A stretch of DNA of 64,000 bases from Actinoplanes ianthinogenes (GTDB lineage Bacteria; Actinomycetota; Actinomycetes; Mycobacteriales; Micromonosporaceae). The stretch covers positions 5,066,001 to 5,130,000 of the forward strand of contig NZ_AP023356.1 in the NCBI RefSeq assembly GCF_018324205.1, in the 5' to 3' direction. The position numbers were made by a program, and so were the translations under genes. The number at the start of each line of letters is the position of its first letter. Positions within the stretch are counted from its first letter, which is position 1. Of this stretch, positions 47,845-64,000 are shown in pieces. The notes beneath the pieces are model-generated. The model was given only the letters and a program-made list of their open reading frames with translations, was not told where the DNA came from and ran no database searches.

Positions 47845-48864
47845 ATGCGCGCTGCCGTCTTCGCCGAGCCCGGTCCCGCCTCCGCCGTCCTGGAGATCGC
47901 CGAACGCGGGCTTCCGCTGGCCGCGGCCGGGGAGGTGCGGGTCCGGATCGTGCTGTCGGCGGTGAACCCGACCGACACCGGCACCCGGGCCGGCCGCGGT
48001 GTGCCGGACGGCGTCGCCCCGCCCCGTGTGCCGAACCAGGACGGTGCCGGCGTGGTCGACGCCCTCGGCGAGGGGGTCGGCGACCTGGAGCCGGGCGACC
48101 GGGTCTGGGTGTGGGACGCCGGTTACGGCCGGGCGAACGGCACCGCTCAGGAGTACGTGGTCCTGCCCCGCCACCAGGTGGTCCGGATGAACGACGACGT
48201 CGCGTTCGAGGTCGGCGCGGCCCTGGGCATCCCGGCGCTGACCGCGCACCGCTGCCTCACGGTGGCCGCCGACGGCCCGGCCCGGCTGGCGCCGGGCGCC
48301 CTGGCCGGGCGGACCGTGCTGGTCGCGGGTGGCGCCGGTGCGGTCGGCAACGCCGCGATCCAGCTCGCCAAGTGGGCCGGCGCGACCGTCCTGACCACGG
48401 TGAGCAGCAAGGAGAAAGCGGTGCTGGCAACCGCGGCCGGCGCCGACGCGGTGATCGACTACCGCGAGGAGGACGTGGCCGCCCGGATCCGCGAGCTGAG
48501 CACGACCGGCCCGCACCTGATCGTCGAGGTGAACACCGAGAACCTCGACCTGGACCTGGACGTGATCGCCCCCAGCGGCAACATCGCGATCTACGTCGGC
48601 GGCAAGATCACCGTGCCCAGCTTCAAGGCCATGCTGAAAAACGCCAGCCTGGACTTCGTGCTGACCTACACGACCAGGCCGGAGGAGAAGGCGCACGCGG
48701 TGGCGGCGGTCGCCGAGGCGGTGAACGCGGGCGCGTTCCGGGTCGGCGAGGAGTACGGCCTGCCGATCATCCGGTTCCCTCTCGACCGGGTGGCCGAGGC
48801 CCACGAGGCGGTGGAGAACCACGTCGTGGGCAAGGTCGTCATCGACGTGACCGCGCCGTACTGA
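47845..48864 (+). CDS. NADPH:quinone reductase-like alcohol dehydrogenase
   Basis: Predicted 339 residues of the zeta-crystallin/quinone oxidoreductase (medium-chain dehydrogenase) family. The N-terminal GroES-like domain (VNPTDTGTRAGRG, PNQDGAGVVDALGEGV, GDRVWVWDA) lacks the structural zinc cysteines, and the Rossmann motif is VAGGAGAVGNAAIQLAKWAGA. It should reduce quinones or alkenals with NADPH. Its last 26 bases overlap the convergent pseG gene. Confidence 0.88.
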   Translation: MRAAVFAEPGPASAVLEIAERGLPLAAAGEVRVRIVLSAVNPTDTGTRAGRGVPDGVAPPRVPNQDGAGVVDALGEGVGDLEPGDRVWVWDAGYGRANGTAQEYVVLPRHQVVRMNDDVAFEVGAALGIPALTAHRCLTVAADGPARLAPGALAGRTVLVAGGAGAVGNAAIQLAKWAGATVLTTVSSKEKAVLATAAGADAVIDYREEDVAARIRELSTTGPHLIVEVNTENLDLDLDVIAPSGNIAIYVGGKITVPSFKAMLKNASLDFVLTYTTRPEEKAHAVAAVAEAVNAGAFRVGEEYGLPIIRFPLDRVAEAHEAVENHVVGKVVIDVTAPY

Positions 48865-49849
48865 GCAGGGCGTCGGCCACCCGCCGCACGCCGTCGCCGT
48901 CGACGGCGGCCCAGCCGGCGGCGGCCAGGGCGGTGCGTGCGGCCGGGTCGGTGAGCAGCGTGCGCAGCACGTCGACGGCGGTGACGTCGAACGCGCCCAG
49001 CCGGCCCAGTCCGGCGGCGTATCCACGGGCGATCGTCTTGTCGTACCCGAGTATCTGGTTGTCGACCACCCAGACCAGCGCGGCCGCCCGCCCGAGGCAG
49101 AGCAGCTCCCAGGTCGACGTGCCGCTGGCACTGACCACCAGGTCGGCGCCGGCCAGCAGTTTCGGCAGGTGGTCGGTGGGCGCGATGATCTCGAACCGCT
49201 GCCCGGGCCCGGGCGGGACGGCGAGCAGGTCGGCGCGCAGGCCGTCGTCGGCGGCCACCACGGTCGCCTCGAAGGGCACGCCGGTGTCCGCGAGCAGCCG
49301 CGCGACCTGCGGCGCGGCACGGTAGGCGTCGGTGCCGCCGAAAAAAGCGACGACCTTCGGGGTACGCACAGCGCCGTGCACCGGCGCCGCGATCGGTCGC
49401 AGCTCGCGCACCGCCGAGCGCAGCAGCGCGTAGTCGAGCCCGATCAGCATCTCCCCGTCGGCCTTCAGCGCGGTGTCCAGGTTCTGGTCGACGTAGATGT
49501 CGGCGCTCTGCCCGCGGGTGTCCCCGTCGACGATGGCCAGCACCGGGATCCCGGCCGCCCGGACCGCCGCGCTGTGCCGCGGCGGCAGTGTGTACGAGTC
49601 CACCACCAGCCCGTCCAGCCCCAGCCGTCGCGCCGCGGCGACCAGCCCCACCTCGTCGTAGGGCGCCGGGTGCCAGGGCAGTCCGCGCTGGTCGAGCTGC
49701 GCCCCGGCCCACGCCACCCCGCCCAGGTCGGCGAGGAAGTGCACGTCGACGCCGCGCGCGGTCAGCTCCTCGGCCAGCGCCACGCACCGCACGAGGTGCC
49801 CGACCCCGATCTTCGGCCCCGCGTCACACCGGATGCCGATGACGATCAT
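48839..49849 (-). CDS. pseG: PseG-like UDP-sugar hydrolase (pseudaminic acid pathway)
   Basis: Predicted 336 residues of the PseG/SpsG family, which removes UDP from UDP-2,4-diacetamido-2,4,6-trideoxy-beta-L-altropyranose. RCDAGPKIGVGHLVRCVALA carries the catalytic-site histidine, VDSYTLPP follows, and the C-terminal GT-B half has VVAFFGGTDAYRAA and VVSASGTSTWELLCLGRAA. ATG 49849 is chosen; a longer frame would run into the repeats. It is the last gene of the minus-strand operon. The 263-base gap before it holds three 89-bp repeats. Confidence 0.85.
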   Translation of the reverse strand: MIVIGIRCDAGPKIGVGHLVRCVALAEELTARGVDVHFLADLGGVAWAGAQLDQRGLPWHPAPYDEVGLVAAARRLGLDGLVVDSYTLPPRHSAAVRAAGIPVLAIVDGDTRGQSADIYVDQNLDTALKADGEMLIGLDYALLRSAVRELRPIAAPVHGAVRTPKVVAFFGGTDAYRAAPQVARLLADTGVPFEATVVAADDGLRADLLAVPPGPGQRFEIIAPTDHLPKLLAGADLVVSASGTSTWELLCLGRAAALVWVVDNQILGYDKTIARGYAAGLGRLGAFDVTAVDVLRTLLTDPAARTALAAAGWAAVDGDGVRRVADALLSTARSRR

Positions 49850-50110
49850 GCTGTGCCTGCTTTGGCGTGCTCTCGTGGCCCTCGCGTGCGGGGTTCGCTG
49901 GTCGGTTGCGGTGGCTGCCGCTCGGTGCAGTCGATCATGCTGTGCCTGCTTTGGCATGCTCTCCTGGCCCTCGCCGGCGGGGTTCGCTGGTCGGTTGCGG
50001 TCGCTGCCGCTCGGTGCAGTCGATCATGCTGTGCCTGCTTTGGCATGCTCTCCTGGCCCTCGCCGGCGGGGTTCGCTGGTCGGTTGCGGTCGCTGCCGCT
50101 CGGTGCAGTC
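49844..50110. repeat. 89-bp tandem repeat, three copies, between spsF and pseG
   Basis: Three near-identical 89-bp units begin GATCATGCTGTGCCTGC at 49844, 49933 and 50022, and a truncated start of a fourth (GATCATGCC) at 50111 overlaps the spsF stop. On the minus strand each unit ends with CAAAGCAGGCACAGCATGATC-like sequence (shown only in part here: GGCACAGCATGATC), which in the last copy is the pseG ribosome site and start. The array therefore repeats the pseG initiation region three times in series. Confidence 0.95.
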
Positions 50111-50112
50111 GA

Positions 50113-50841
50113 TCATGCCTGGGCGAGCTCCTTCTGGTGTACGTGCGCGTTGAGCTCCACCAGTTCAGGACGCTCGGCGAGCCAGTCGGCGACGGTCCCG
50201 AGGCCGACCGGCTGGTCACCGAACCGGTCGACGATCGCCTCGATCAGCTTCCAGTCGTCCTCGGTGTCCAGGGTCAGCCGCAGGTGCGACCGGTCCGGCA
50301 GCACGGTCAGCCCGATCACGTCGAACTCGTCCGGGTGCGAGTAGATGTACGACGTCACGTGCGTCCGGTGATGCGCGGTGGCCCGGTCGTCGATCTCCCG
50401 CAACACTCCGGCCTTGACCACCTCGACGTCCAGCCCGCGCGGCAGCGTCCGAGTGATCGAGGTGGTCAGATAGTCCACTCCGGACGCCTCGAAGACGGAG
50501 AACGCTCGCCTCACCAGCGAGGGGTCGAGCAGCGGGCAGTCGGCGGTGAACCGCAGCACGGTGTCCACCCCGTCCCGCCCGTCGAGCACCCCGAGGAACC
50601 GGGTCAGCACGTCGTCGACCGGCCCGCGGTGACAGGCCACCCCGATCCGGGCGCACTCCGCCTCGACCGCGTCGTCGGCGGCCTCGGTGGTGGTCGCGAC
50701 GACCAGGTCGTCGAGGACCCCGCCGGCCCGGGCGGCGCGGACCACCCGGTGCAGGACGGTCCGGCCGCCGAGCGGGCGCAGAACCTTGCCGGGAAGGCGG
50801 GTGGAGCCCATCCGGGCCTGGATGATGCCGAGCGTCGTCAC
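50113..50841 (-). CDS. spsF: SpsF-type cytidylyltransferase (activates a nonulosonic acid)
   Basis: Predicted 242 residues. IIQARMGSTRLPGKVLRPL is the nucleotide-binding motif of the SpsF/CMP-sialate synthetase-like family, with TADCPLLDP as metal/nucleotide site and HVTSYIYSHPDEF downstream. In Bacillus spore-coat clusters SpsF accompanies SpsG, a PseG relative, as here. It probably attaches CMP to the sugar acid, the role that PseF fills elsewhere. It is not the canonical PseF sequence type (which has a GGSKRIPRKN motif). Confidence 0.83.
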   Translation of the reverse strand: MTTLGIIQARMGSTRLPGKVLRPLGGRTVLHRVVRAARAGGVLDDLVVATTTEAADDAVEAECARIGVACHRGPVDDVLTRFLGVLDGRDGVDTVLRFTADCPLLDPSLVRRAFSVFEASGVDYLTTSITRTLPRGLDVEVVKAGVLREIDDRATAHHRTHVTSYIYSHPDEFDVIGLTVLPDRSHLRLTLDTEDDWKLIEAIVDRFGDQPVGLGTVADWLAERPELVELNAHVHQKELAQA

Positions 50842-50856
50842 GGTGCGTCCTAGCTT

Positions 50857-52479
50857 CTATCGACGGGTGGTCTGTTGACGGAGTCGGTTGCGGGCCTTGC
50901 GGGCCATGGCCAGCCCGGCCTTGGCGGCGCGGTAGCCGAGGCCGCCGCTGAACGCGGCGATCTGCATCCGGGCGCGGCCCAGCTCGGCGTCCCGTTTCTC
51001 CAGCTCGTGCTCGAAGAAGCCGGCCCGGGCCTCGGCGTCGGCCAGCCGCCGGCGCAGGGCCGACAGCTGTTCCTCGTGCTCCCGGCGGCCGTCCGGGAGG
51101 GCCTGCGCCTCGGACTGCTCCGGGAGCTCGTCCAGCCCGGCCGCGCCGGCCAGGATCGCGGTGAGCCGGGGCAGGTCGGCGATCGCCTGCCACGGGTGGG
51201 CGTAGCCACCGGTGGTCAGTGTCCGCGCGAAACGGGTCAGCGCGTCGGGACAGTCCGGCGCGTCCGGGTCGAGCAGGGCGAACCGGTCGCCGTCGACCAG
51301 CACGTTGCCGGCGTCGGCGGTGGGCAGCGCGACCATCCAGCCGGTGAGCAGCCGCCGCAGGGTCGGCAGTTCATGCCGCAGCGCCGCGGTGAGCAGCAGC
51401 TCCTCCAGCAACCGCCCGGCCGGAAGAGGCCGCTCTGCGGTAAGAGGCCGCTCGGCCGGAAGAGACCGCTCTGCGATATGAGGCCGCTCGGCGGTAAGAG
51501 GCCGCTCGGCCGGACGAGGCTGCGCGGTGGGAAGAGGCCGCTCCGACGGCAGCGGCCGGTCGCCGGGATGGCCGACGGTGCGCTGCGCCCAGCCGGCCTC
51601 CGGCGAGCCGGTCAGCTCGGTGATCGTTCCCGGTCCGGCGCGCAGCACCGGGGGCAGCGTCACGGCCGGGGCCGCGATCGGGGCGCGGTGGGCGACGGCC
51701 AGCCAGGCCGGTGCGAGTTCCGCGCCCAGACCGCGCCGGACCGCCGCGCCGGCCAGCCGGCGAGGATCACAGAGCACAGGACGATTCGCGTACGCCGTCC
51801 CGACCGCCGCCGTGACCAGCGCGGCGAGCGCGTGCACCGGCCCATGCCCCAGCGTCTCCGGCGTGACCAGCAACGTCGGGTGATGTGCCGCCGGCCAGGC
51901 GGCCGCCAGACCGGAGACGACCAGGCCCTCCGCGTCCAGTGCCGCCGCCACCCGGTCGGCCCGGCCCGGCGCGGTGCCGAACTCGCCGAGCGGCCGCCAG
52001 GCGTCTTCGGTCCGTGCCGCGGTCGCCGCGCCCGGGTCGACCAGCCGGTGCACACCCAGCTCGTTCTCCACGGTGAGCAGCAGCGCGCCGCCCGGGCGCA
52101 GCACCCGCTTGAGCGCGCGGACCGCGTCCAGCCAGTCGAGTTGCGGGCCCTCCGGGGAGCAGAGCCGGGCCACGCCGTCCAGCGCGAGCACCGCGTCGTA
52201 CCGATCGGTCTCGGTCAGCTTGGGCAGGGTGCCGCAGAGGATCCGGACCCCGGGCACGTCCCGCGCATCCTGGGCGAGCGCGTCCGGGTGCGAGCGGACC
52301 AGGCAGGTCAGCTCACGGCCCGGGGCCAGCGCGGCGACCAGGCCGGGATCGTGCGGGCCGGCGAGCAGCACCCGGGCGCCGGTGGGAAGGTGTTCGACCA
52401 GGTGCCGCAGGAGCGGGCCGCCGGCCGGGGGGAGCTGTTCGGCGTAATCCGGCATCTCGCCGCCGATGAGCTGGATCAC
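50857..52479 (-). CDS. SAM methyltransferase-like protein with hexapeptide repeats and coiled coil
   Basis: Predicted 540 residues. The first ~170 fit a class I methyltransferase, although the glycine motif is degenerate (VLLAGPHDPGLVAALAPG); RYDAVLALDGVARL and LKRVLRPGGALLLTVENEL are normal for the fold. Residues about 305-360 are a Glu-Arg-Pro-Leu-x-Ala hexapeptide repeat. A domain with LLTGWMVALPTADAGNVLVDGD follows, then a coiled coil and a basic tail (GYRAAKAGLAMARKARNRLR). GTG 52479 overlaps the upstream stop (GTGA). It may methylate or organise glycan assembly. Confidence 0.72.
   Translation of the reverse strand: MIQLIGGEMPDYAEQLPPAGGPLLRHLVEHLPTGARVLLAGPHDPGLVAALAPGRELTCLVRSHPDALAQDARDVPGVRILCGTLPKLTETDRYDAVLALDGVARLCSPEGPQLDWLDAVRALKRVLRPGGALLLTVENELGVHRLVDPGAATAARTEDAWRPLGEFGTAPGRADRVAAALDAEGLVVSGLAAAWPAAHHPTLLVTPETLGHGPVHALAALVTAAVGTAYANRPVLCDPRRLAGAAVRRGLGAELAPAWLAVAHRAPIAAPAVTLPPVLRAGPGTITELTGSPEAGWAQRTVGHPGDRPLPSERPLPTAQPRPAERPLTAERPHIAERSLPAERPLTAERPLPAGRLLEELLLTAALRHELPTLRRLLTGWMVALPTADAGNVLVDGDRFALLDPDAPDCPDALTRFARTLTTGGYAHPWQAIADLPRLTAILAGAAGLDELPEQSEAQALPDGRREHEEQLSALRRRLADAEARAGFFEHELEKRDAELGRARMQIAAFSGGLGYRAAKAGLAMARKARNRLRQQTTRR
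51410..51565. repeat. 18-bp repeats encoding ERPL-x-A hexapeptides
   Basis: Within the methyltransferase-like gene about nine 18-bp units encode E-R-P-L-[PT]-A and variants (for example PAERPLTAERPHIAERSL). The repeats stay in frame, which implies selection on the protein product. Confidence 0.85.
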
Positions 52480-53336
52480 GCGGTCGCCTCCCGAGCCGCG
52501 GTGTGCTGCTCCGCGGCGCGGCCGCGGGGCGCGGTCCAGCCCAGGATCGCGCGCAGCTCGGCCGGGCCGGCCAGGTGGCCGTCGCCGAGCTCGGCGAGCG
52601 CGGTGACCCGCGCCGCGACCGGATCCGGCGCGACCCCGTGCAGCTCCGGCCACTCCCGGCGGATCCGGGTGGCGGTGGCGGTGTCCTCCGAGGCCAGCCG
52701 CATCGGGTCGCCGTAGACGGCGGGCTCGCAGCCGGCCACCGCCCCGTAGAGCACCGCGCTGCTCAGCCGGTTGGACGCCACCCGCCGGTGCCGGCGCAGC
52801 TCGGCGAGCTGGTGGTGCAGGAACCGGGTGTCCGTCCGCATCCGCATGTAGCCCCGGTAGCCGTGGCAGATCACCCGGCCCGCCTGCTCGTAGAACGCCC
52901 GCACCCGGTCGTCTCGGAACTCCTGCCAGTACAGGCAGAAGGTGATCGGGCCGGGCTCGGTGTCCACGATCTCGTCGATCAGTCGCCGGTGATCGCCGCT
53001 GACGTGCTGGCCCTCCCAGCCGTGGAACGGGTACCAGATGGTGCCGTCGCGCCGCGCCGGCTCGCCGGCGTCCGGTGTGGACCGCAGCAGGTAGAGGAAG
53101 GGTGCGCCGATCACCGTGGCCAGCGGGCGGCCCATCGACCACGCGCGCCGCCGGGTCCGCTCGGACCAGACGAAGATCGGCAGGCCGGGCGCGTACGGCG
53201 TGCCGGCCCCCAGCCCGTCGACCACGTTCCAGCCGTGTTGCAGGTAGCCGTCGATCCGGGGCGGGTCCGCCGGGTCGAGCCCGCAGTACTCGGCCAGAAC
53301 GTGGGCGTGGCCGTAGAAATGGTTGCCGTGGTGCAC
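52476..53336 (-). CDS. Uncharacterised glycan-cluster protein (possible glycosyltransferase)
   Basis: Predicted 286 residues with no signal or membrane helix. Distinct conserved-looking blocks are DGYLQHGWNVVDGLG, IGAPFLYLLRST, GTIWYPFHGWEGQHVSGDHR, ITFCLYWQEF, GRVICHGYRGYMR and RRHRRVASNRLSSAVLYGAV, ending with YGDPMRLASEDT. The alternating strand/helix plan and the C-terminal position of a G-D-P/E-D patch would suit a GT-B glycosyltransferase, but I do not recognise a named family. It sits between pseC and the methyltransferase-like gene in the same operon, so a role in making or transferring the nonulosonic sugar is likely. Confidence 0.6.
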   Translation of the reverse strand: MHHGNHFYGHAHVLAEYCGLDPADPPRIDGYLQHGWNVVDGLGAGTPYAPGLPIFVWSERTRRRAWSMGRPLATVIGAPFLYLLRSTPDAGEPARRDGTIWYPFHGWEGQHVSGDHRRLIDEIVDTEPGPITFCLYWQEFRDDRVRAFYEQAGRVICHGYRGYMRMRTDTRFLHHQLAELRRHRRVASNRLSSAVLYGAVAGCEPAVYGDPMRLASEDTATATRIRREWPELHGVAPDPVAARVTALAELGDGHLAGPAELRAILGWTAPRGRAAEQHTAAREATA

Positions 53337-53339
53337 GGC

Positions 53340-54464
53340 TCAACTCCCGAGAATGCCGCGCAGGGTGTCGATGACGCGATCCTGCTCGGCGTCGCTGAGG
53401 TCGACGAAGAGCGGAAGGGAGATCTCCTCGGCGTAGAAGGCCTCGGCGACCGGGCACATGCCCCGGCGGTACCCGAGATCCTCGAACGCCGGGTGCCAGT
53501 ACACCGGGATGTAGTTGACCTGCACCCCGATCCCGGCCGCGTGCAGCCGGTCGAACACCTCGCGGCGGCGGCCGTCCAGCACGCGTACCGGATAGAGGTG
53601 CCGCATCGGGTCGACGTCGTCCGGGGTGACCGGCAGGCGCAGGCCCGGCACGCCGGCGAGCAGCTCGTCGTACCGGGCGGCGAGATACCGGCGGCGAGCC
53701 TTGAAGGCGTCCAGCCGGCGCAGCTGGGAGGTGCCCAGCGCGCAGAGCACGTCCGGCAGCCGGTAGTTCAGGCCGAACTCGTGCACCTCGTAGAACCAGC
53801 GGCCCTCGTCGGCGTGCCGCAGCTTCTCCGGCTGCTTCACCATGCCGACCGTGCGGAACGTGCGGACCCGTTCCACCAGGTCGGGGTGGATCGAGGCGAC
53901 CGCGCCGCCCTCCCCGGTGGTCAGGTTCTTGGTCGGGAAGAACGAGAACGTGGTCAGGTCGGCGACCGAGCCGACCGGACGGCCGTGGTAGGTCGAGCCG
54001 ATCGCGTGCGCCGCGTCCGCGATCAGCACCGCGCCGGCGCTGTCGCTGAGCTTGCGCAGCCGGTCGTAGTCGGCCGGGACGCCGGCGTAGTCGACCGCGG
54101 TGATCGCCCGGGTACGCGAGGTCACCGCGGCCTCGGCGGCGGCCGGGTCCAGGTTCGCGGTGTCCTCGTCGATGTCCGCGAAGACCACGGTCGCGCCGAG
54201 CATGGCCGCGCCGGAGGCGGTGGCCACGAACGTCATCGGCGTGGTGACCACCTCGTCGCCCCGGCCGATGCCGGCCGCGGCGTAGGCGGCGTGCAGCGCG
54301 GTGGTCCCGTTGGTGACCGTCACGCACGGCGCGCCGGCGACCCGCTCCAGGTCCGCCTCGAACTCGCGGACCCGGGGGCCGGTGGTCAGCCAGTCGCTGC
54401 CCAGCGCGGCGACCACCGCGTCCACGTCGGACGGCGCGATGGACTGGCGTCCGTACGGCAGCAT
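53340..54464 (-). CDS. pseC: UDP-4-amino-4,6-dideoxy-N-acetyl-beta-L-altrosamine transaminase (PseC, DegT family)
   Basis: Predicted 374-residue PLP aminotransferase. It starts MLPYGRQSI like PseC proteins, has TNGTTALHAA, the phosphate-binding region and the PLP lysine K179 in FSFFPTKNLTTGEGG, and ends with YIPVYWHPAFEDLGY and SLPLFVDLSDAEQ. It aminates the 4-keto sugar made by PseB. The ATG overlaps the pseB stop by one base (TGATG). The transaminase matches PseC more closely than generic DegT proteins because of its partner genes. Confidence 0.87.
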   Translation of the reverse strand: MLPYGRQSIAPSDVDAVVAALGSDWLTTGPRVREFEADLERVAGAPCVTVTNGTTALHAAYAAAGIGRGDEVVTTPMTFVATASGAAMLGATVVFADIDEDTANLDPAAAEAAVTSRTRAITAVDYAGVPADYDRLRKLSDSAGAVLIADAAHAIGSTYHGRPVGSVADLTTFSFFPTKNLTTGEGGAVASIHPDLVERVRTFRTVGMVKQPEKLRHADEGRWFYEVHEFGLNYRLPDVLCALGTSQLRRLDAFKARRRYLAARYDELLAGVPGLRLPVTPDDVDPMRHLYPVRVLDGRRREVFDRLHAAGIGVQVNYIPVYWHPAFEDLGYRRGMCPVAEAFYAEEISLPLFVDLSDAEQDRVIDTLRGILGS

Positions 54465-55444
54465 CACTTCTCCGACAGCAGGTGGCGCATCTCGTCGACC
54501 GAGAGCCACAGGTCGTTGTTGTCGGAGCGGTAGTTGAAGCCGTCGGCGACCTGCTCGCCACCGTCCGGCGTCTGGTAACCCCAGCTCGCGGCGACCGGCT
54601 GGACCACGTAGCGGTCCTTGAAGCGCAGCGTGCGGCGGCTGTCGTCGGCCGCGATCATCTCCTCGTGCAGTTTCTCGCCCGGGCGCATGCCGATCTCGTG
54701 GATCGGCGAGCCCGGGGCCACCGCCTCGACCAGGTCGAGGATCCGCATGCTCGGGATCCGCGGCACGTAGAGCTCGCCGCCGCGCATCACGTCGAACGAG
54801 TTGACGACGAACTCGACCGCCTGGTCCAGGGTGATCCAGAACCGGGTCATCCGCTTGTCGGTGATCGGGAGGCTCTTGTTCTCGGCCGCCAGCTTGCGGA
54901 AGAACGGCACCACCGAGCCGCGGCTGCCCATCACGTTGCCGTAACGGACCACGGCCAGCCGGGTCGGGTGGGTGGCGGCGTAGTGGTTGCCGGCCACCAC
55001 GATCTTGTCGGCGGCCAGTTTGGTCGCGCCGTACAGGTTGATCGGGCTGGACGCCTTGTCGGTGGAGAGCGCGACGACCTTCTTGACCTCGGCGTGGATG
55101 GCCGCGTCGATCACGTTCTGGGTGCCGTTGATGTTCGTCGCGACGAACTCCGACGGGTTGTACTCGGCGGTGTCGACCTGCTTCAGGGCGGCCGCGTGCA
55201 CCACGTGGTCGATCCCGTGCATGGCCCGGTCCAAGCGCGCGCGGTCGCGGATGTCGCCCAGGAAGAACCGCAGCCGGGGGTCGTCGCCGAAGGTCTGCCG
55301 GACCTCGTACTGCTTCAGCTCGTCACGGGAGAACACCACGATGCGGTGCGGGTCGAGGTGCGTGAGCGCGTACTTCAGGAATGCCTTGCCGAACGAACCG
55401 GTGGCGCCGGTGACAAGGATCGAGGATCCGCTGATTTCAGACAC
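54464..55444 (-). CDS. pseB: UDP-N-acetylglucosamine 4,6-dehydratase (inverting)
   Basis: Predicted 326-residue extended short-chain dehydrogenase, first enzyme of the pseudaminic acid route. It dehydrates UDP-GlcNAc with inversion at C5. Motifs: SILVTGATGSFGKAFLKY, LGDIRDRARLDRAM, VHAAALKQVDTAEYNP, YGATKLAADKI. GTG 55444 (VSEISGSS) is chosen because GGAG precedes it by about 8 bases and it opens right at the Rossmann strand. It is the first gene of a six-gene minus-strand operon and divergent from the ACP operon across 189 bases. Confidence 0.9.
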   Translation of the reverse strand: MSEISGSSILVTGATGSFGKAFLKYALTHLDPHRIVVFSRDELKQYEVRQTFGDDPRLRFFLGDIRDRARLDRAMHGIDHVVHAAALKQVDTAEYNPSEFVATNINGTQNVIDAAIHAEVKKVVALSTDKASSPINLYGATKLAADKIVVAGNHYAATHPTRLAVVRYGNVMGSRGSVVPFFRKLAAENKSLPITDKRMTRFWITLDQAVEFVVNSFDVMRGGELYVPRIPSMRILDLVEAVAPGSPIHEIGMRPGEKLHEEMIAADDSRRTLRFKDRYVVQPVAASWGYQTPDGGEQVADGFNYRSDNNDLWLSVDEMRHLLSEK

Positions 55445-55633
55445 GTGTTTTCTCCGGGGGACTGGGCAGCAAAGCGCTACGGGGCGGAAGCATAACCACC
55501 TGTCCCGGCAATTCCGCGGGTCGCGGAGAACAGCCAATGGCAATTCATTTTCAGTTCAACCGGCATTGGTCGCGACGACCGAGCGCCTGCGGGAAGGTGA
55601 AGTCCTCCATTCACCGCCCCTGGGAGTAACACC
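55445..55633. promoter_or_regulatory. Divergent promoter region between pseB and the ACP operon
   Basis: The 189 bases between two opposing operons contain a locally A+T-rich stretch at about 55525-55570 (CAATGGCAATTCATTTTCAG). Both promoters must lie here. I see no strong operator palindrome. Shared position suggests the two operons may be expressed together. Confidence 0.6.
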
Positions 55634-55876
55634 GTGACTGAGCTGGCCAGACTGCGCGACGCGTTCCGCACCGCACTGGATCTTCCGGCGGACGCGCCCG
55701 TGGACGACCTGCGCTACCAGGACAACGAGAAGTGGGACTCCCTGGCGCACATGTCGCTCGTCGCGACAATTGAAGATGAATTCTCGGTAATGATCGACAC
55801 GGACGACGTCATCAATATGTCCAGCTTTGCCGAGGCCGTGCGAATCCTCGGTAAATACGGGGTGGACGTCAAGTGA
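55634..55876 (+). CDS. Acyl carrier protein
   Basis: Predicted 80 residues. The phosphopantetheine serine is S36 in NEKWDSLAHMSLVATIEDEF; the DSL context is normal for stand-alone ACPs. It starts at GTG 55634 with GGGAG about 6 bases before. It is the first gene of a plus-strand operon of SDR, adenylate ligase, LuxE-like and LuxC-like genes, each starting on the GTGA of the previous stop. It is thus the likely carrier of the acyl group handled by this operon rather than the fatty-acid synthase ACP. Confidence 0.9.
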   Translation: MTELARLRDAFRTALDLPADAPVDDLRYQDNEKWDSLAHMSLVATIEDEFSVMIDTDDVINMSSFAEAVRILGKYGVDVK

Positions 55877-56604
55877 GCGTCGCCCTGGTCACCGGGGCGT
55901 CGCGCGGCATCGGCCGGGCGGTCGCGCACCGTCTCGCCGAGCAGGGTTACGACCTGGTCCTGCACGGGCACGGCGCGGCCGGGGTGGCCGAGACGGCCGA
56001 GTCGGTGGCCGGCAAGTTCGGCGTGACCGTGCTGCACGGCGCCGGCGACATCGCCGACCCGCAGACCGGCAAGGCCCTGGCCCGGCTCGCCTTCGAGCAC
56101 TTCAAGCGGCTGGACGCGCTGGTGGTCAACGCCGGCACGCACGCCGCCGGGATGCTCGGGATGACCGCCGACGACACCATCGAGCGGCTGTTCGCGGTGA
56201 ACGCGGCGGGTGCGGCGTACACCCTGCAGAACGCCGTGCGCCTGCTGGCCCGCGGGGAGAACCCGGCCGTGGTGCTGACCGCCTCGATCACCGGCACGCA
56301 CGGCGCGGCCGGCCAGGCCGTCTACGCCGCGTCCAAGGCCGCCGTGGTCGGCCTGACCAGATCGGCCGCCAAGGAGCTCGGCCCGCGCGGGATCCGGGTC
56401 AACGCGGTCGCGCCCGGCTTCATCGCCACCGACATGCTGGACACCCTGGACGAGGCCGGCCGCGCCGAGCGGATCGCGGACACCGCCCTGGGCCGGCTCG
56501 GCACCGCCGAGGAGGTCGCCGACGTGATCGCCTTCCTGCTCTCCACCCAGGCCCGCTTCGTGACCGGCCAGATCGTCGGGGTCGACGGGGGACTGACGCT
56601 GTGA
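55873..56604 (+). CDS. Short-chain dehydrogenase/reductase (FabG-like)
   Basis: Predicted 243-residue NAD(P)H-dependent reductase. The cofactor motif is VTGASRGIGRA, followed by LVVNAGTHAAG, the active site TASITG (serine near 138), Y151 and K155 in VYAASKAAVVG, and GIRVNAVAPGFIATDM. It most resembles 3-oxoacyl-ACP reductases. The GTG start overlaps the ACP stop by four bases. In context it may reduce a keto group on the ACP-bound acyl chain, or a sugar keto group; only the first is suggested by the ACP. Confidence 0.88.
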   Translation: MSVALVTGASRGIGRAVAHRLAEQGYDLVLHGHGAAGVAETAESVAGKFGVTVLHGAGDIADPQTGKALARLAFEHFKRLDALVVNAGTHAAGMLGMTADDTIERLFAVNAAGAAYTLQNAVRLLARGENPAVVLTASITGTHGAAGQAVYAASKAAVVGLTRSAAKELGPRGIRVNAVAPGFIATDMLDTLDEAGRAERIADTALGRLGTAEEVADVIAFLLSTQARFVTGQIVGVDGGLTL

Positions 56605-57824
56605 ACCTGCTGCACCCGGACGCTCGCGTGGTCGACGCCGCGACCGGCGACGAACTCACCCCCGAGCTGATCGACGCGGCTGCCGCCGAGCTGGCCGGCG
56701 AGCGGCTGGTCTTCCTGCCGATGCCGTCGACGGTCCCGGCGGTCGCCCGTTACCTCGCGGCGCTGCGCCTCGGCGTGCCGGTCGTGCCGCTCGACCCGGA
56801 CGCCGACCACACCGGCCTGATCGAGCGGTACGCCACCGACCGGGTCCACCCCGACCTGGCGCTGCTGCTGACCACCAGCGGGTCGACCGGCAACCCCAAG
56901 CTGGTCCGGCTGTCCCGCGCGGCCGTGCTGGCCAACGCCGGGCAGGTGGCCGACAGCCTCGGCGTCGCCGGCGCCGACGTCGCGATCACCACACTGCCGC
57001 TGTTCTATTCGTACGGCATGTCGGTGCTGCACTCGCACCTGCTGCGCGGGGCGACCGTGGTCCTCGAACGCACCGGCATCATGCGGCGCGACTTCTGGGC
57101 GGCGGTGAACGAGCACCGGGTCTCCTCGATGGCGTTCGTGCCGTACCAGTACGAGATGCTGCGACGGCTGCGCTTCGACCCGGCGACGTACCCCTCGCTG
57201 CGGACGATCACGCAGGCGGGCGGCCGATTGCGTACCGAAATGGTGTCTGAATTCGCGGCCCGGATGGCGGCCGTGGGCGGCCGGATGTTCGTGATGTACG
57301 GGCAGACCGAGGCGGCGCCGCGGATGGCCGCGCTGCCCCCGGAGCGGATCGCCGACAAGCTCGGCTCGGTCGGGCTGCCGATGCCCGGCGCGAGCTTCGC
57401 GATCGAGGACGACGAGGTCGTCTACCGCGGGCCGAACGTGATGATGGGTTACGCCGAGTCCGCCGCCGACCTGGTCAAGGGCGACGAGCTGGGCGGCGTG
57501 CTGCGCACCGGTGACCTGGGCCGGCTCGACGAGGACGGCTTCCTGTTCATCACCGGCCGGCTCAAGCGGATGGGCAAGGTGTTCGGCGTCCGGATCAACC
57601 TGGACGACGTCGAGCGGAACTTCCCGGTGACGGCGGTGGCCGGCGACGACAGGCTGCACGTGTTCGCCGAGGGGATCGGCGACGACGAGGCCCGCGCGTT
57701 GCGGACGAAGATCGCCGAGTGGCTGGGCAGTCACTTCACCGGGATCGACGTGCGCGTGATCGAGGCGTTGCCGTTGCTGCCGAACGGCAAGACGGACTAT
57801 CGGGCGCTGGAGGCGTCGCTGTGA
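56601..57824 (+). CDS. Short AMP-dependent acyl ligase
   Basis: Predicted 407-residue adenylate-forming enzyme of the ANL superfamily. It contains the P-loop TSGSTGNPKLVRLS (about residues 92-105), YGQTEAAPRM (A5), GDLGRLDEDGFLFITGRLKR (A7-A8) and the C-terminal lysine in LPNGKTDYRAL (A10). It is about 100 residues shorter than usual, mainly because the N-terminal part before the P-loop is only ~90 residues. It would activate a carboxylic acid as acyl-AMP and load the ACP. It starts at GTG 56601, overlapping the SDR stop. Confidence 0.88.
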   Translation: MNLLHPDARVVDAATGDELTPELIDAAAAELAGERLVFLPMPSTVPAVARYLAALRLGVPVVPLDPDADHTGLIERYATDRVHPDLALLLTTSGSTGNPKLVRLSRAAVLANAGQVADSLGVAGADVAITTLPLFYSYGMSVLHSHLLRGATVVLERTGIMRRDFWAAVNEHRVSSMAFVPYQYEMLRRLRFDPATYPSLRTITQAGGRLRTEMVSEFAARMAAVGGRMFVMYGQTEAAPRMAALPPERIADKLGSVGLPMPGASFAIEDDEVVYRGPNVMMGYAESAADLVKGDELGGVLRTGDLGRLDEDGFLFITGRLKRMGKVFGVRINLDDVERNFPVTAVAGDDRLHVFAEGIGDDEARALRTKIAEWLGSHFTGIDVRVIEALPLLPNGKTDYRALEASL

Positions 57825-58855
57825 GTGTCTTCACCCTGCCGCAGGCCGTCAAAGAGGAACGTCTCCTCAACGAGCTCTCGGCCCTGGTTGATCATCACCG
57901 CGACCGGTGCGAGCCCTATGCCCGCATCCTGGCGGCTTCCGGTTACGCCGGCGCTTCGGAGATCTCCGCATTGCCGTGGCTGCCGGTCCGGCTGTTCAAG
58001 ACGCTGGAACTCAAGAGCATCCCGGACGACGAGGTGTTCAAGGTGCTCACCTCCAGCGGCACCACCGGCGACGTCAGCCGGATCCACCTGGACAAGGCGG
58101 CCGCCGCCGAGCAGCAGAAACGGCTCGCCGCCACGGTGCAGACCGTGCTCGGGCCGAAACGGCTGCCGATGCTGCTGGTCGACACCAAGGCGATGCTCAA
58201 GGACCGCCGCTCGTTCAGCGCTCGCGGCGCCGGCGTGCTCGGCATGTCCACGTTCGGCCGGGACCACGTGTGGGCGCTGGACCCGGACGGACAGGTCGAC
58301 CTGGCGGCGATCCGCGGCTTCCTGGACAAGCACGGCGACGCGCCGTTCCTGATCTTCGGCTTCACCTTCCTGGTCTGGCTGCACCTGTACGAGGTGGCCC
58401 GGGACAACGGCCTGGACCTGTCGAACGGCATCCTGATCCACTCCGGTGGCTGGAAGAAGCTGATCGACCAGGCCGTCTCGCCCGACGAGTTCCGCGCGCG
58501 ACTGGCCGGCGTCGGCCTCACCCGGGTGCACAACTACTACGGCATGGTCGAGCAGATCGGCACGATCTTCCTGGAGGGACCGGACGGTGGCGCGCTGTAC
58601 TGCCCGGACTTCGCGGATGTGGTCATCCGCGACCCGCGGACCTGGGCGGAGCTCCCGCCCGGTGAACCGGGCCTCATCGAGGTGATCAGCACACTGCCCA
58701 CCTCGTACCCCGGGCACGTGCTGCTCACCGAGGACCTCGGGGTGGTGCACGGGATCGACGACGGCGCCTGGCCCGGCAAGCGTTTCTCGGTGCTCGGCCG
58801 GCTGCCGCGCGCCGAGGCCCGGGGCTGCTCCGACACCTATCGGGAGGCCGCGTGA
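57821..58855 (+). CDS. LuxE-like acyl-protein synthetase
   Basis: Predicted 344 residues of the LuxE/PaaK superfamily. The N-terminal RLFKTLELKSIPDDEVFKVL followed by TSSGTTGDVSRIHLD is the LuxE adenylation motif, and the C-terminal half has YYGMVEQIGTIFLEGP and a TEDLGVVHGIDD segment. In luminous bacteria LuxE activates fatty acids as acyl-AMP and passes them to the reductase LuxC. The gene directly following here is a LuxC homologue, so the same pairing is expected. GTGA overlap on both sides. Confidence 0.88.
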   Translation: MSVFTLPQAVKEERLLNELSALVDHHRDRCEPYARILAASGYAGASEISALPWLPVRLFKTLELKSIPDDEVFKVLTSSGTTGDVSRIHLDKAAAAEQQKRLAATVQTVLGPKRLPMLLVDTKAMLKDRRSFSARGAGVLGMSTFGRDHVWALDPDGQVDLAAIRGFLDKHGDAPFLIFGFTFLVWLHLYEVARDNGLDLSNGILIHSGGWKKLIDQAVSPDEFRARLAGVGLTRVHNYYGMVEQIGTIFLEGPDGGALYCPDFADVVIRDPRTWAELPPGEPGLIEVISTLPTSYPGHVLLTEDLGVVHGIDDGAWPGKRFSVLGRLPRAEARGCSDTYREAA

Positions 58856-60039
58856 GCATCCAATTCCGGTTCGGCGCACCGGGAGACCTCACCGCGCCGT
58901 CCGACGACCGGCTCGCCGTCGGCGACCCGCGCGTCGTCGACTTCCTCGGCAAGCTGGCCCGCAAGCTGCTCGCCCCGGCCCTCGCCCGGCGGCACCCGGA
59001 GCTGGGCTCGCTCGGCTACTTCCTGCGGCCGGCCGAGCTCACCCGGGCCGTCGAGAAGATGCGGCGGGACGACGCGCTGGTCTTCCCCCGGGGCAATGTC
59101 TTCCACGTCCCACCGGCCAACGTGGACACCATCTTCGTGTACTCGTGGGCGCTCTCCGCGCTGGCCGGCAACCACAACGTGGTCCGGATCTCCAGCCGGT
59201 CGGCCGGTGCGGCGGACGCCATCTTCCAGGCGCTGCACGAGGTCGACGCCGACCCGGTGATCGCCCGCACCCAGCGGATGGTCACCTACGGCCGGGACGA
59301 CGCGATCACCGGCGCGCTCAGCCGCTGGGCGGACCTGCGGGTGATCTGGGGCGGTGACGCCGCCGTCGAGGCGATCCGCGAGCACCCGCTGCGGCCGTCC
59401 GGGCGGGACCTGACGTTCCCCGACCGGACGTCCTGGGCGGTGCTCTCGATTCCCGGCTGGCGCGCCGCCGACCCGGCTGCCCGCCGGGCCGCGGCGCTCG
59501 GGTTCGCCAACGACGCGTACTGGTTCGACCAGGCCGCCTGCTCGTCCCCGCGGACCGTGTTCCTGGTCGGTGCGGGCGACGCCGAGGCGGTCCGGGCGGA
59601 GTTCCTGGAGCTGCTGCTGGCGGCCGTCGACCAGCGGGGCTGGACGGTGGACGCGGCGATGGCGGTGGAGAAGCGGGTGAACGCGTACGGGCTGGCGGCG
59701 ACCGGCGCGGCCACCTCGGTGGCGTTCCCGGACAACCGGATCACCTCGCTCACCCTGACCGGACCGGATCAGGTGCCCCGGCGCTGGATCGGGGCCGGCG
59801 CCTTTCCCTTCGCCCGGGCCGATGCGCTGATCGACCTGGTGCCGGCGATGACCCGGCAGGACCAGACCGTGAGCCACTTCGGCTTCACCCCCGCCGAGCT
59901 GCACGAGTTCGCCCTCGCGCTGGCCGGCCGCGGGGTGGACCGGATCGTGCCGTTCGGCTCGGCGCTGACCTTCGGCGCGATCTGGGACGGGTACGACCTG
60001 CCCGCCGAGTTCACCCGCCTCACCACTCTGCACAGCTGA
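58852..60039 (+). CDS. LuxC-like acyl-CoA/acyl-protein reductase
   Basis: Predicted 395-residue aldehyde-dehydrogenase-fold reductase (LuxC family), reducing an activated acyl group to an aldehyde with NADPH. The probable acyl-accepting cysteine is C230 in WFDQAACSSPRTVFLVG. FPRGNVFHVPPANVDTIFVY and LAGNHNVVRISSRSA are typical N-terminal LuxC segments. It starts at GTG 58852 on the LuxE stop. No luciferase is in the window, so the aldehyde must be used for something else. The membrane protein gene follows after 11 bases. Confidence 0.9.
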   Translation: MSIQFRFGAPGDLTAPSDDRLAVGDPRVVDFLGKLARKLLAPALARRHPELGSLGYFLRPAELTRAVEKMRRDDALVFPRGNVFHVPPANVDTIFVYSWALSALAGNHNVVRISSRSAGAADAIFQALHEVDADPVIARTQRMVTYGRDDAITGALSRWADLRVIWGGDAAVEAIREHPLRPSGRDLTFPDRTSWAVLSIPGWRAADPAARRAAALGFANDAYWFDQAACSSPRTVFLVGAGDAEAVRAEFLELLLAAVDQRGWTVDAAMAVEKRVNAYGLAATGAATSVAFPDNRITSLTLTGPDQVPRRWIGAGAFPFARADALIDLVPAMTRQDQTVSHFGFTPAELHEFALALAGRGVDRIVPFGSALTFGAIWDGYDLPAEFTRLTTLHS

Positions 60040-60050
60040 TCAAGCGAGCG

Positions 60051-62345
60051 ATGGCAACTACCTTGGTGGCCCCCGCGGCCACGGAGACGGCGTCCCGTGA
60101 CGCCCGCGAGTGGCGCTCGCCGCTGCCCTGGATCCTTCCGGTGGCGGCGGCCCTGTGGGCGCTGCTCGGCACCGGTACGCCGGCCCGGGACATCGCTCTC
60201 TACGGCGTCTACTTCCTGCTGGCGATCGTCGTACCGGGAACTCTGGTCTTCCGTGCCCTGTTCGGCAGCCGTGGCAACTGGCCGGAGGATCTCACCCTCG
60301 GCACCGCCGCCGGCCTGGTCGTCATGCTGGCCGGCTGGGCCCTGGGCGCCGCGTTCGGCCTCCAGTCGCTGCTGATCGGCTGGCCGGTGCTGGTGGTGCT
60401 GCCGTTCCTGCTGGTCCCCGGGCTGCGGCGGTGCTGGCGGCGCGGCGCGGGCGACCCGCTGCCGCTCGGCTGGCACTGGGCGATGGCGGCGGTGCTGCTG
60501 CTGGTGATCCTCTGGCTGGCCACGGTCTTCCAGGACTTCCCGCTGCCGCCGGTCCGCTTCGAGTACTACAAGGATCTGTACTACCACCTGGCGCTGGTGC
60601 ACGAGATGACCCGCTCGATGCCGTTCCAGGTGCCGCAGCTGGCCGGGTACGAGCTGCGCTACCACTACCTCTCCGACGCGGACCTCGCCACCGCGAGCAT
60701 GGTCACCGGGATCGCACCGGCCACGCTGCTGTTCCGGCTGTGGTTCCTGGCCGTCACGGTCGCCGGCGTGTTCGCCTTCGCCACCCTGGCCCGGGTGGTC
60801 AGCGGCCGCTGGTGGGCCGCGCCGGTCGCGGCGGCGGCCGGGTTCGCCGGGCAGGCGGTGTCGTTCGGCTCGGCGGCCGCCACCTTCAACAGCGGCGGCC
60901 CGGTGTCCCTGCTCAGCCCGTCGCAGGACATCGCCATGCCGCTGATCGCGCTGTTCACGGTGATCGCCGTGGACCGGCTGCGGGGCCGGCCGCTCGGCTG
61001 GGGCTGGGCGTTCCTGCCGCCGCTGGCGGTGGCCTGCGCCGGGTCGAAGGCGAGCGTGCTGCCACCGCTGGCGGCCGGGCTGGCGGCGGCCGGGGTGGTG
61101 ACCCTGTGGCGGACCCGGAAGCTGCCGTGGGCGGCCGCCGGGCTGTTCGGGGTGGCGGTGTCCGGCATGCTCTTCGGCGCCCGGTTCTTCGCCGGTGGCG
61201 GTGCCGGCGTGCTCCAGCCGCAGCCGCTGGGCACGCTGCGCTGGCTGGCCCCTTACACGCAGACGCTGGGCGTCGACGACGGCCCGCGGTGGGGCGGCCT
61301 CGTCCCGCCGGGCATCCAGAACGCCGGCACCACCGGCCGGGCGTTCATCGCCTGGGTGCTGATCTGGGCCTTGCTGCTGCAAGCTCCCCGGCTGATCGGG
61401 CTGGCGCTGCCGCCCCGCTCGCGAGGGACCGGTGACCCTGCGCTGCCACTGATCGCCGGTACTCTCCTCGCCGGTCTCGGCGCGACCTGGGTGTTCTGGC
61501 ACCCGACCGCGAGCCAGGTCTACTTCTTCGCCGGCGTGATCCCGTTCGGCGCGGTGCTGGCCGCCTGGTCGCTGGCCGACCGGGCACGCTCCTGGCGGGT
61601 CCCGGTGGCCGGCGCGGTGGCCGGCGCCCTCTGCGCCGTGCTGCTGCCCGGCGTCGACCCGCCGGCCCGGACCGTCAGCGCGTGGGCCTGGACGCTCGCC
61701 GTGCCGCTGCTCCGGCTCGCGGCGATCACCGCGGTGGTCGTCGTGGTGGTGCTGGTGGTCTGGCGGGGCCGTGCCCGGCGGGCGCTGCCGGTGGCGCTGA
61801 TCGCCGCGACGCTGGGCGCCGGGGTGGCCTCGTACACCGTGCAGAACGCCGAGGCGGTCACCGTCCCGGCGGCGCCGCGGGGTGACCCGAGATATCAGGT
61901 CACCCCGCTGGAGATGCGGGCCGCGTTCTGGCTGGACGCGCATGCCGGCGAGAACGACCTGGTGGCCACCAACGTGCACTGCCGCCCGATGAGCGCCACC
62001 ACGCCGTGCGACGCCCGGGCGTTCTGGGTGGCCGGCCTGGGCGGGCGGCGCACCCTGGTGGAGAGCTGGGGATACAGCGACCAGGCGGTGGCCAGGAACG
62101 GGGTGCGCGACCGGGTCTACTTCTACCAACCGGCGCCGGACCGGGCGCTGTTCGCCCTGAACCAGCGGGCGTTCAGCACCGGGGACCCGGCGGTCGTCGC
62201 CCGGCTGCGTGACGATTACGGCGTACGCTGGTTGTTCGCCGACAGCCGGGCGGGCACGGTGGCGCCGGCGCTGGCACAGGTCGCCACCGAGCGGCTGCGT
62301 CTGGGTACGGTGACCATCTATGAGCTGGGCCGGCAGTCGGGTTAA
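60051..62345 (+). CDS. Large polytopic membrane protein (GT-C-like)
   Basis: Predicted 764 residues with about twelve to fourteen transmembrane helices and a C-terminal ~150-residue soluble part (from RYQVTPLEMRAAFWLDAHAGE) with VRWLFADSRAG and TVTIYELG. The first extracytoplasmic loop holds FEYYKDLYYHLALVHEMTRS and LRYHYLSDADL, an acidic/aromatic patch as in GT-C glycosyltransferases that use polyprenyl-phosphate sugars. It is 11 bases after luxC in the same operon. A role in attaching or modifying the surface glycan is inferred; no clear family name. Confidence 0.72.
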   Translation: MATTLVAPAATETASRDAREWRSPLPWILPVAAALWALLGTGTPARDIALYGVYFLLAIVVPGTLVFRALFGSRGNWPEDLTLGTAAGLVVMLAGWALGAAFGLQSLLIGWPVLVVLPFLLVPGLRRCWRRGAGDPLPLGWHWAMAAVLLLVILWLATVFQDFPLPPVRFEYYKDLYYHLALVHEMTRSMPFQVPQLAGYELRYHYLSDADLATASMVTGIAPATLLFRLWFLAVTVAGVFAFATLARVVSGRWWAAPVAAAAGFAGQAVSFGSAAATFNSGGPVSLLSPSQDIAMPLIALFTVIAVDRLRGRPLGWGWAFLPPLAVACAGSKASVLPPLAAGLAAAGVVTLWRTRKLPWAAAGLFGVAVSGMLFGARFFAGGGAGVLQPQPLGTLRWLAPYTQTLGVDDGPRWGGLVPPGIQNAGTTGRAFIAWVLIWALLLQAPRLIGLALPPRSRGTGDPALPLIAGTLLAGLGATWVFWHPTASQVYFFAGVIPFGAVLAAWSLADRARSWRVPVAGAVAGALCAVLLPGVDPPARTVSAWAWTLAVPLLRLAAITAVVVVVVLVVWRGRARRALPVALIAATLGAGVASYTVQNAEAVTVPAAPRGDPRYQVTPLEMRAAFWLDAHAGENDLVATNVHCRPMSATTPCDARAFWVAGLGGRRTLVESWGYSDQAVARNGVRDRVYFYQPAPDRALFALNQRAFSTGDPAVVARLRDDYGVRWLFADSRAGTVAPALAQVATERLRLGTVTIYELGRQSG

Positions 62346-62410
62346 CCCTACCGTCGATCCGGCGGTCCACAGGATCGGATCGGAGGGCTCCGGTGCCTAG
62401 CGTCGAGGGC

Positions 62411-63718: not shown

Positions 63719-63758
63719 CCGATGCCCGGGGTTGCGACGGGGCCGTATCGTCGCCGAC

Positions 63759-64000
63759 ATGCGCAAGATCTTCAATGGCCTGCCCGCGGTCCTCGCCGCG
63801 GGCACCGCCGTGCTCGTCGCGGTCGCCGGGAGCGCGTCTCCCGCCCTCGCCGCCGCGGGCACCCCCGGATCCGCCGGTCTCGGCGACCGTCTGTACCCCC
63901 TGCTCGGCAACGGCGGGTACGACGTCAAGAACTACAACCTCAGCCTCAAGTACCCGGCCAAGAGCCCGACCCAGACCGTCACCGGCAACGTGACGATCAC
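63759..64000 (+). CDS. Secreted M1-type metallopeptidase, 5' part (runs off the window)
   Basis: About 80 residues are visible. A signal peptide (residues 1-32, VLAAGTAVLVAVAGSASPALAA) is followed by GLGDRLYPLLGNGGYDVKNYNL and SLKYPAKSPTQTVTGNVTI, the N-terminal beta domain typical of secreted M1 aminopeptidases of actinomycetes. The catalytic H-E-x2-H lies beyond the window, so activity cannot be judged. It is 40 bases after the histidine kinase on the same strand. Confidence 0.8.
   Translation, partial: MRKIFNGLPAVLAAGTAVLVAVAGSASPALAAAGTPGSAGLGDRLYPLLGNGGYDVKNYNLSLKYPAKSPTQTVTGNVTI

Follow-up and report, generated by a model that had tools for sequence, protein, structure and literature searches.

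A widespread ACP, SDR, ligase, LuxE and LuxC gene cassette beside pseudaminic acid-type genes in Actinoplanes ianthinogenes, with a possible role in sugar N-acylation

We analyzed a 64,000-nt stretch of the 9.9-Mb Actinoplanes ianthinogenes genome (positions 5066001-5130000; hereafter the window, to which the coordinates below refer), in which five consecutive plus-strand genes form a cassette in the order acyl carrier protein (ACP), short-chain dehydrogenase/reductase (SDR), AMP-forming acyl ligase, LuxE-like protein and LuxC-like protein. The ACP (55634..55876) matches the Pfam family PF00550 (PP-binding) at 24.9 bits (cut-off 20.8) and carries Ser36 in a WDS motif, the expected phosphopantetheine site. 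It is followed by a FabG-like SDR (55873..56604; PF13561, adh_short_C2, 197 bits, and PF00106), which scores under the NCBIfam cut-offs for all 25 families among the matches listed; a ligase of 407 aa, probably an acyl-ACP ligase (56601..57824; PF00501, AMP-binding, 137.8 bits); a LuxE-like acyl-protein synthetase with the C-terminal Cys336 in RGCSD (57821..58855; PF04443, LuxE, 146.3 bits); and a LuxC-like acyl reductase with Cys230 (58852..60039; PF05893, LuxC, 111.4 bits). Neighbouring genes overlap by GTGA at all four junctions (55873-55876, 56601-56604, 57821-57824 and 58852-58855). Eleven bases past LuxC begins the gene for a 764-aa membrane protein on the same strand (60051..62345), a probable glycan assembly step, which has no Pfam match and is labelled GT-C-like because of the source names of its relatives: some are named 'Glycosyltransferase RgtA/B/C/D-' or '4-amino-4-deoxy-L-arabinose transfer...', and most 'hypothetical protein'. 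A first-pass annotation of this DNA had described the five genes, their overlaps, the membrane protein and divergent pse genes, and both the coordinates and the Pfam matches agree with it.

The pse genes lie alongside the cassette on the minus strand. The inverting UDP-GlcNAc 4,6-dehydratase gene pseB (54464..55543) encodes a protein that matches TIGR03589 at 483.3 bits (cut-off 407.75) from residue 38, and the true start is probably downstream of the TTG. Adjacent genes encode a PseC-like aminotransferase (53340..54509; TIGR03588, 404.7 bits, just under the cut-off of 423.5), a PseF-like CMP-sugar synthetase (50113..50841; PF02348, 106.1 bits; TIGR03584, 31.3 bits, under the cut-off of 205.7) and a PseG-like UDP-sugar hydrolase (48839..49957; TIGR03590, 121.6 bits, under the cut-off of 153.55). 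Outside the window, approximately 14-15 kb to the right of luxC, pseI (NeuB family) and a gene for a PseH-like GNAT acyltransferase stand together on the minus strand; the latter (genome positions 5140881-5141270) scores 62.2 bits, under the cut-off of 93.1. The curated NCBIfam cut-off is thus reached by PseB alone among the PseB-, PseC-, PseF-, PseG- and PseH-like proteins, and that of the NeuB family is reached for PseI; as only PseB exceeds its cut-off and PseC falls narrowly short, we read the sugar as pseudaminic acid or a close relative. The idea that the cassette replaces a missing PseH was rejected because a PseH-like GNAT is present beside pseI.

The cassette recurs far beyond this genome. 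A scan of GTDB contigs found LuxE relatives of the cassette type in at least 567 stretches of species genomes, and we examined the best 80 of these, ranked against a Ponticoccus LuxE (hence not a random sample), with flanks of up to 10 kb; 20 of the 80 loci span no more than 18 kb. Gene families were called with profile hidden Markov models (HMMs) that we built and with our own score limits. Record titles place the loci in Pseudomonadota, Bacillota, Bacteroidota, Spirochaetota, Synergistota and others. All five families are found in 63/80 loci and the order ACP-SDR-ligase-LuxE-LuxC, with inserts between genes allowed, in 37/80, so that the gene order is not unique to this genome, and its recurrence across phyla makes it more than a chance arrangement. 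At least two pse genes lie within the fetched stretch in 33/80 loci; the proposed link to pse genes thus stands here and in those loci but does not hold everywhere, the remaining loci being without them. In a plasmid collection, 22 records have a LuxE match, 13 of them above 40% identity (Nonomuraea, Deinococcus, Ponticoccus and ten Rhizobium; the Nonomuraea 'plasmid' measures 11.85 Mb), and in Nonomuraea gerenzanensis one locus unites the cassette with pse genes and a membrane-protein homologue. This homologue lies 3' of luxC both in that locus (L008) and in the Actinoplanes-type loci L112-L114. Congruence among the gene trees of the cassette is moderate at best (rho 0.19-0.62, 84 loci). Relatives of Escherichia coli with known O-antigens gave no DNA match to the ligase-luxE-luxC stretch of Kosakonia or Aeromonas and were set aside.

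The first-pass annotation had called the module undescribed, which is not the case. A survey of 98 Aeromonas strains (PMC7874193) describes, in the part available, an island with pse genes, an ACP, a 3-oxoacyl-ACP reductase, an AMP-dependent synthetase, luxE and luxC; its group II polar flagellin island (orf1-orf3, luxE, luxC) has the same functions, order and pse neighbours as the window, and five Aeromonas loci of our set (L036, L039, L043, L044 and L047) have the same arrangement. Flagellin glycosylation islands of Enterobacteriaceae combine Acp, FabG, CaiC, LuxE and LuxC, with LuxE in 73 strains (PMC4875605, as seen in part); these gene families are common to the window, while host and acceptor differ. 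A fatty acid or liposugar role was suggested for the Aeromonas genes, and a liposugar role for those of Enterobacteriaceae too, and the portions of both papers that were available report no biochemistry of the five proteins (PMC7874193, PMC4875605). A paper on Clostridium pseudaminic acid (PMC13317340) does not mention luxE, luxC or an acyl carrier, and the Shewanella oneidensis sfmABCDE genes were rejected as the same cassette, since they encode a NeuB, a thiamine pyrophosphate (TPP) enzyme, an SDR, a methyltransferase and an ATP-grasp protein (PMC3765264). The cassette itself is therefore known and widespread, and the published reading of its members as 'fatty acid genes' is a guess that looks doubtful.

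Residues expected at the active sites are conserved throughout the cassette members that score above our limits. The W-D-S motif is present in 98/98 aligned ACPs, S138, Y151 and K155 of the SDR in 87/87, and the C-terminal Lys of the ligase (K655 in the longer frame aligned), which presumably has the catalytic role of its counterpart in the wider family, in 104/104. The C-terminal Cys of LuxE, which we take to be the acyl carrier, is kept in 106/106 members and aligns with the C-terminal GCS of the LuxE chain 7xc6_E; the LuxC Cys is kept in 103/103 and aligns with a Cys of 7xc6_A. We take 7xc6 to be the LuxC-LuxE fatty acid reductase of luminous bacteria, acting through acyl-Cys; its homology to the cassette pair is distant, yet both active cysteines align. 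Because both are kept, reduction is probably retained, and from these sequences one would expect acyl transfer and reduction rather than a decayed pair. The cassette LuxC proteins also keep R163, D169 and R176 in 101, 98 and 96 of 103 members, respectively, whereas 7xc6_A has Val, Tyr and a gap at these positions (aligned by eye).

These comparisons bear on the liposugar proposal, under which the ligase, ACP and SDR would handle a fatty acid and LuxE and LuxC would make a fatty aldehyde for the lipid part of a glycan. Family resemblance speaks for it, as do the suggestions in the two island papers, seen in part (PMC7874193, PMC4875605). However, the cassette proteins differ from the lux fatty acid reductase, LuxE scoring 58 bits against a cut-off of 550 and LuxC 49.4 against 750 for the lux equivalogs, and the operon has neither a ketosynthase nor a thioesterase. 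The earlier statement that luciferase and ketosynthase are lacking holds for the genes scanned, namely the operon and ten further neighbour genes on both sides, which cover part of the flanks: no luciferase or ketosynthase family was found there, nor LuxA, LuxB or LuxD. This sets the locus apart from a type II fatty acid synthase or polyketide cluster; elsewhere, KAS III occurs in 3/125 edge genes of non-pse loci. The better matches of the ligase include the exosortase A associated acyl ligase TIGR03098 (144.3 bits, far under the cut-off of 592.35) and the 2-oxoglutaryl-ACP ligase AmcH (106 bits, far under 370). Lastly, the flagellin glycan masses of the cassette-bearing Aeromonas piscicola AH-3 include no lipid-sized part in what we could consult of that report (PMC7874193), and we regard a liposugar role as quite improbable.

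Genes at the edge of the cassette point to another use for its product. We scanned edge genes against Pfam, counting 125 of 126 edge rows, 109 of 110 rows of random genes, 72 of 76 upstream rows and 61 of 62 downstream rows. Over all loci, the GNAT family PF13302 accounts for 31/72 upstream genes and hexapeptide transferases for 10/72. In loci without pse genes, 15/125 edge or inserted genes are GNAT (PF13302) and 15/125 hexapeptide transferases (PF00132), and random other genes of these loci include 2/109 hexapeptide and at most approximately 2/109 GNAT members among the 25 families listed (30/125 versus 4/109, Fisher P = 4e-6). The same holds for non-pse loci from the bacterial family of the window, in which acyltransferases make up 6/18 edge genes compared to 1/91 others (P = 6e-5; 9 of 12 loci scored, none of which supplied an HMM seed). 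Our own HMMs gave 27/70 versus 5/455 in the pse loci of the 80-locus set and 24/112 versus 12/461 in the others, figures that are biased because the seeds were partly edge genes; the Pfam comparison and the family counts are free of this bias. DegT aminotransferases are present in 21/51 non-pse loci. On balance, acyltransferases at the cassette edge argue for an acyl-ACP that serves as donor for sugar N-acylation.

An aldehyde end product would be the main competitor to such a donor: an acid would be modified on the ACP, released and reduced by LuxE and LuxC, and the aldehyde or alcohol joined to a sugar or used elsewhere. In a set of 86 loci (the 80, five further loci, L008-L012, and the window), a possible aldehyde user is the split transketolase, found in 14/86 (L011, L034, L035, L046, L061, L063, L067, L070, L074, L076, L080, L084, L087 and L089) and often inside the cassette; 16 loci had been flagged, and two with weak hits (L037 and L042) were left out of the count. 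A type II thioesterase, whose place is that filled by LuxD in lux, lies near luxE in 7/86 loci by our own HMM, and some of the transketolase-type loci also carry one. The window belongs to the type without transketolase or thioesterase, in contrast to that of Kosakonia (L076). The commonest edge families of non-pse loci (top 25 listed) are acyltransferases and glycosyltransferases, not aldehyde users, and we consider an aldehyde product rather unlikely overall, although loci with a transketolase leave room for an aldehyde user. Of the first-pass proposal, then, a small acid carried on the ACP remains plausible, and its release as an aldehyde or alcohol is not favoured, given that the edge acyltransferases point to an acyl-ACP donor.

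Our preferred reading, to which we give roughly even odds (about 0.5), is that the cassette builds a small polar hydroxyacyl-ACP from which a sugar N-acyltransferase acylates a pseudaminic-type sugar, or elsewhere another amino sugar. LuxE would adenylate one carboxyl of a small acid and carry it as a Cys thioester, LuxC would reduce the LuxE-bound acyl group to an aldehyde, and the SDR would turn the aldehyde (or a keto group) into a hydroxyl. The ligase would load the remaining carboxyl on the ACP, possibly as the first step, with the chemistry then taking place on the ACP; the acyltransferase would deliver the hydroxyacyl group to an amine of the sugar. The completed sugar would go to the GT-C-like protein, for use or attachment at the membrane. 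That the cassette pairs one ACP with two activating enzymes, and lacks a condensing enzyme, makes sense for a small diacid of which each enzyme activates one end.

Several observations weigh against this reading. The window operon has no acyltransferase gene, and in family pse loci, the kind to which the window belongs, acyltransferases account for 0/12 edge genes versus 1/66 others (6 of 8 loci scored). That a GNAT or LbH gene lies within 6.5 kb of luxE in 32/35 pse loci speaks for the reading, but the three pse loci without one include the window and Nonomuraea L008, and in the other pse loci the GNAT may simply be PseH; in this genome the PseH-like GNAT approximately 15 kb away could supply a plain acetyl group. 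Taking all 86 loci, 26, some on short contigs, have no GNAT or LbH gene near luxE. The diacid substrate is one that we infer by logic, and no assay of any cassette protein appeared among the papers listed, which were searched by title and abstract start and lie mostly outside subscription journals.

Glycan masses offer a lead as to the acyl group. In cassette-bearing A. piscicola AH-3, the linking sugar was reported at 376.14 Da, together with a 102-Da unit described as unknown in the part of the paper available (PMC7874193). Mono-acetyl pseudaminic acid (Pse) plus C4H6O3 (102.032; dihydroxybutanoyl or O-methylglyceroyl) gives a computed 376.148, but two C3H4O2 acyl groups (lactyl or hydroxypropanoyl) match this value equally, a further point against the preferred reading, which makes the fit a lead and not proof. 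The same masses bear on a split of functions, in which N-acylation would draw on 3-hydroxybutanoyl-ACP made by the ligase, ACP and SDR (acetoacetate being one conceivable source), and LuxE and LuxC would perform an unrelated reduction. The SDR is FabG-like, and sugars of this kind are known to carry N-linked 3-hydroxybutanoyl; against this, one hydroxybutanoyl swap predicts 360.153 rather than the reported 376.14, and the genes keep together, as the number of loci with all five attests, so that we hold such a split to be improbable.

Returning to the hydroxyacyl-ACP reading, a more specific version would be a widespread pathway from a C4 diacid such as malate to polyhydroxyacyl groups for sugars, including dihydroxybutanoyl and tetrahydroxyhexanoyl variants; we put it forward tentatively, as unlikely in this exact form but worth stating. 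LuxE and LuxC would reduce one carboxyl of the diacid to the semialdehyde. In window-type cassettes the SDR would give dihydroxybutanoate, which, once attached to the ACP, would be transferred to an amine of pseudaminic acid to give a Pse of 376.148 Da, and in the second cassette type the split transketolase would first add two carbons, leading to 2,4,5,6-tetrahydroxyhexanoyl. The flagellin glycan of Treponema denticola is reported to have a mass of 450.2 Da and to carry a 2-O-methylated tetrahydroxyhexanoyl group; the computed sum 274.116 + 176.068 is 450.185. The Treponema loci count in part against this lead: LuxE matches occur in 9/145 genomes of the Treponema bryantii family, and of eight loci fetched from it, L141-L145 have no ligase within 20 kb by our own HMM; another (L146) is of the full transketolase type. 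Three of these loci (L143, L144 and L145) have an ACP and LuxE, with LuxC in L143 and L145, a reduced or scattered form of the cassette.

As to the acceptor, the Aeromonas island, in the sections seen (PMC7874193), often lies near flagellar genes and is followed by a GT2 gene (Fgi-1), though some islands are away from the flagellar region, whereas in A. ianthinogenes both flagellin matches lie at 4.13 Mb and the cassette at 5.12 Mb, approximately 1 Mb apart, and a GT-C-like gene comes next. We surveyed 250 genomes of the family of the window (Micromonosporaceae by inference) and found LuxE in 85 and flagellin in 88. Within the genus, LuxE is present in 52/61 genomes and flagellin in 61/61; among the 189 genomes outside it, 17 have both (in one, G042, the flagellin match falls short of the Pfam cut-off), 16 LuxE only, 10 flagellin only and 146 neither (hand counts). 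The association between LuxE and flagellin is strong, on figures that ignore shared descent, and a flagella-only role was rejected on these counts. From 19 family genomes we examined 20 loci, 17 of which keep all five genes on a single strand and in cassette order; across 19 of the 20, the frames at 57/74 cassette junctions close with GTGA or ATGA, which permits the same overlap as in the window. By our own HMMs, 8/20 have at least two pse-type genes, and for two of these (L123 of G001 and L126 of G039) the source genome has no flagellin match. Since the flagellins are 1 Mb away and these two flagellin-negative relatives keep pse and cassette, the cassette is not tied to flagella. No PF01973 (MptE-like) match was found in the genome, a result that leaves room for other transferases. 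For this genome we rate an acceptor outside the flagellum as no less likely than flagellin, and a glycan of the wall or sheath may well fill that role.

Other features of the pse block and of the cassette surroundings are recorded here. The minus-strand gene adjoining pseC (52476..53336) encodes an uncharacterised protein with no family match at E 0.001 and 903 relatives, with homologues beside pseC in actinomycete pse loci (L008, L112-L115, L120 and L126, with two copies in L115); our guess is that it is a candidate sugar transferase, perhaps of pseudaminic acid. A second uncharacterised protein on this strand (open frame 50857..52500, start uncertain) has no Pfam match, appears methyltransferase-like by eye only, and has homologues in the same pse loci (L008, L112-L115, L120 and L126). 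Before pseF, at positions 49843-50118, an 89-bp unit is repeated in tandem 3.1 times (97% matches), and the open frame of pseG runs upstream into this repeat. Positions 48000-64000 gave no Rfam match, and a developmental regulator box was rejected with 12 matches in the window versus 10.57 expected and none at 55.4-55.7 kb. In other loci, 4/125 edge or inserted genes (non-pse loci) and 3/61 downstream genes belong to the lactate/malate-dehydrogenase family, such a gene lying directly after luxC at L070:12294-12905, L079:12312-13280 and L080:12196-13104; a FabA-like gene follows luxC and an ACP in the Rhizobium-type loci L069:12591-13070 and L071:12544-13020 (2/61 downstream genes; loci assigned by eye in both cases).

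If the cassette does make polar acyl groups for nonulosonic and amino sugars, LuxE/LuxC-type carboxylate reduction would enter the chemistry of surface glycans, odd masses in flagellin glycans could be explained, and genomes could be searched for the cassette as a marker that predicts N-acyl groups on sugars. In actinomycetes, pse-linked cassettes need not serve flagella.

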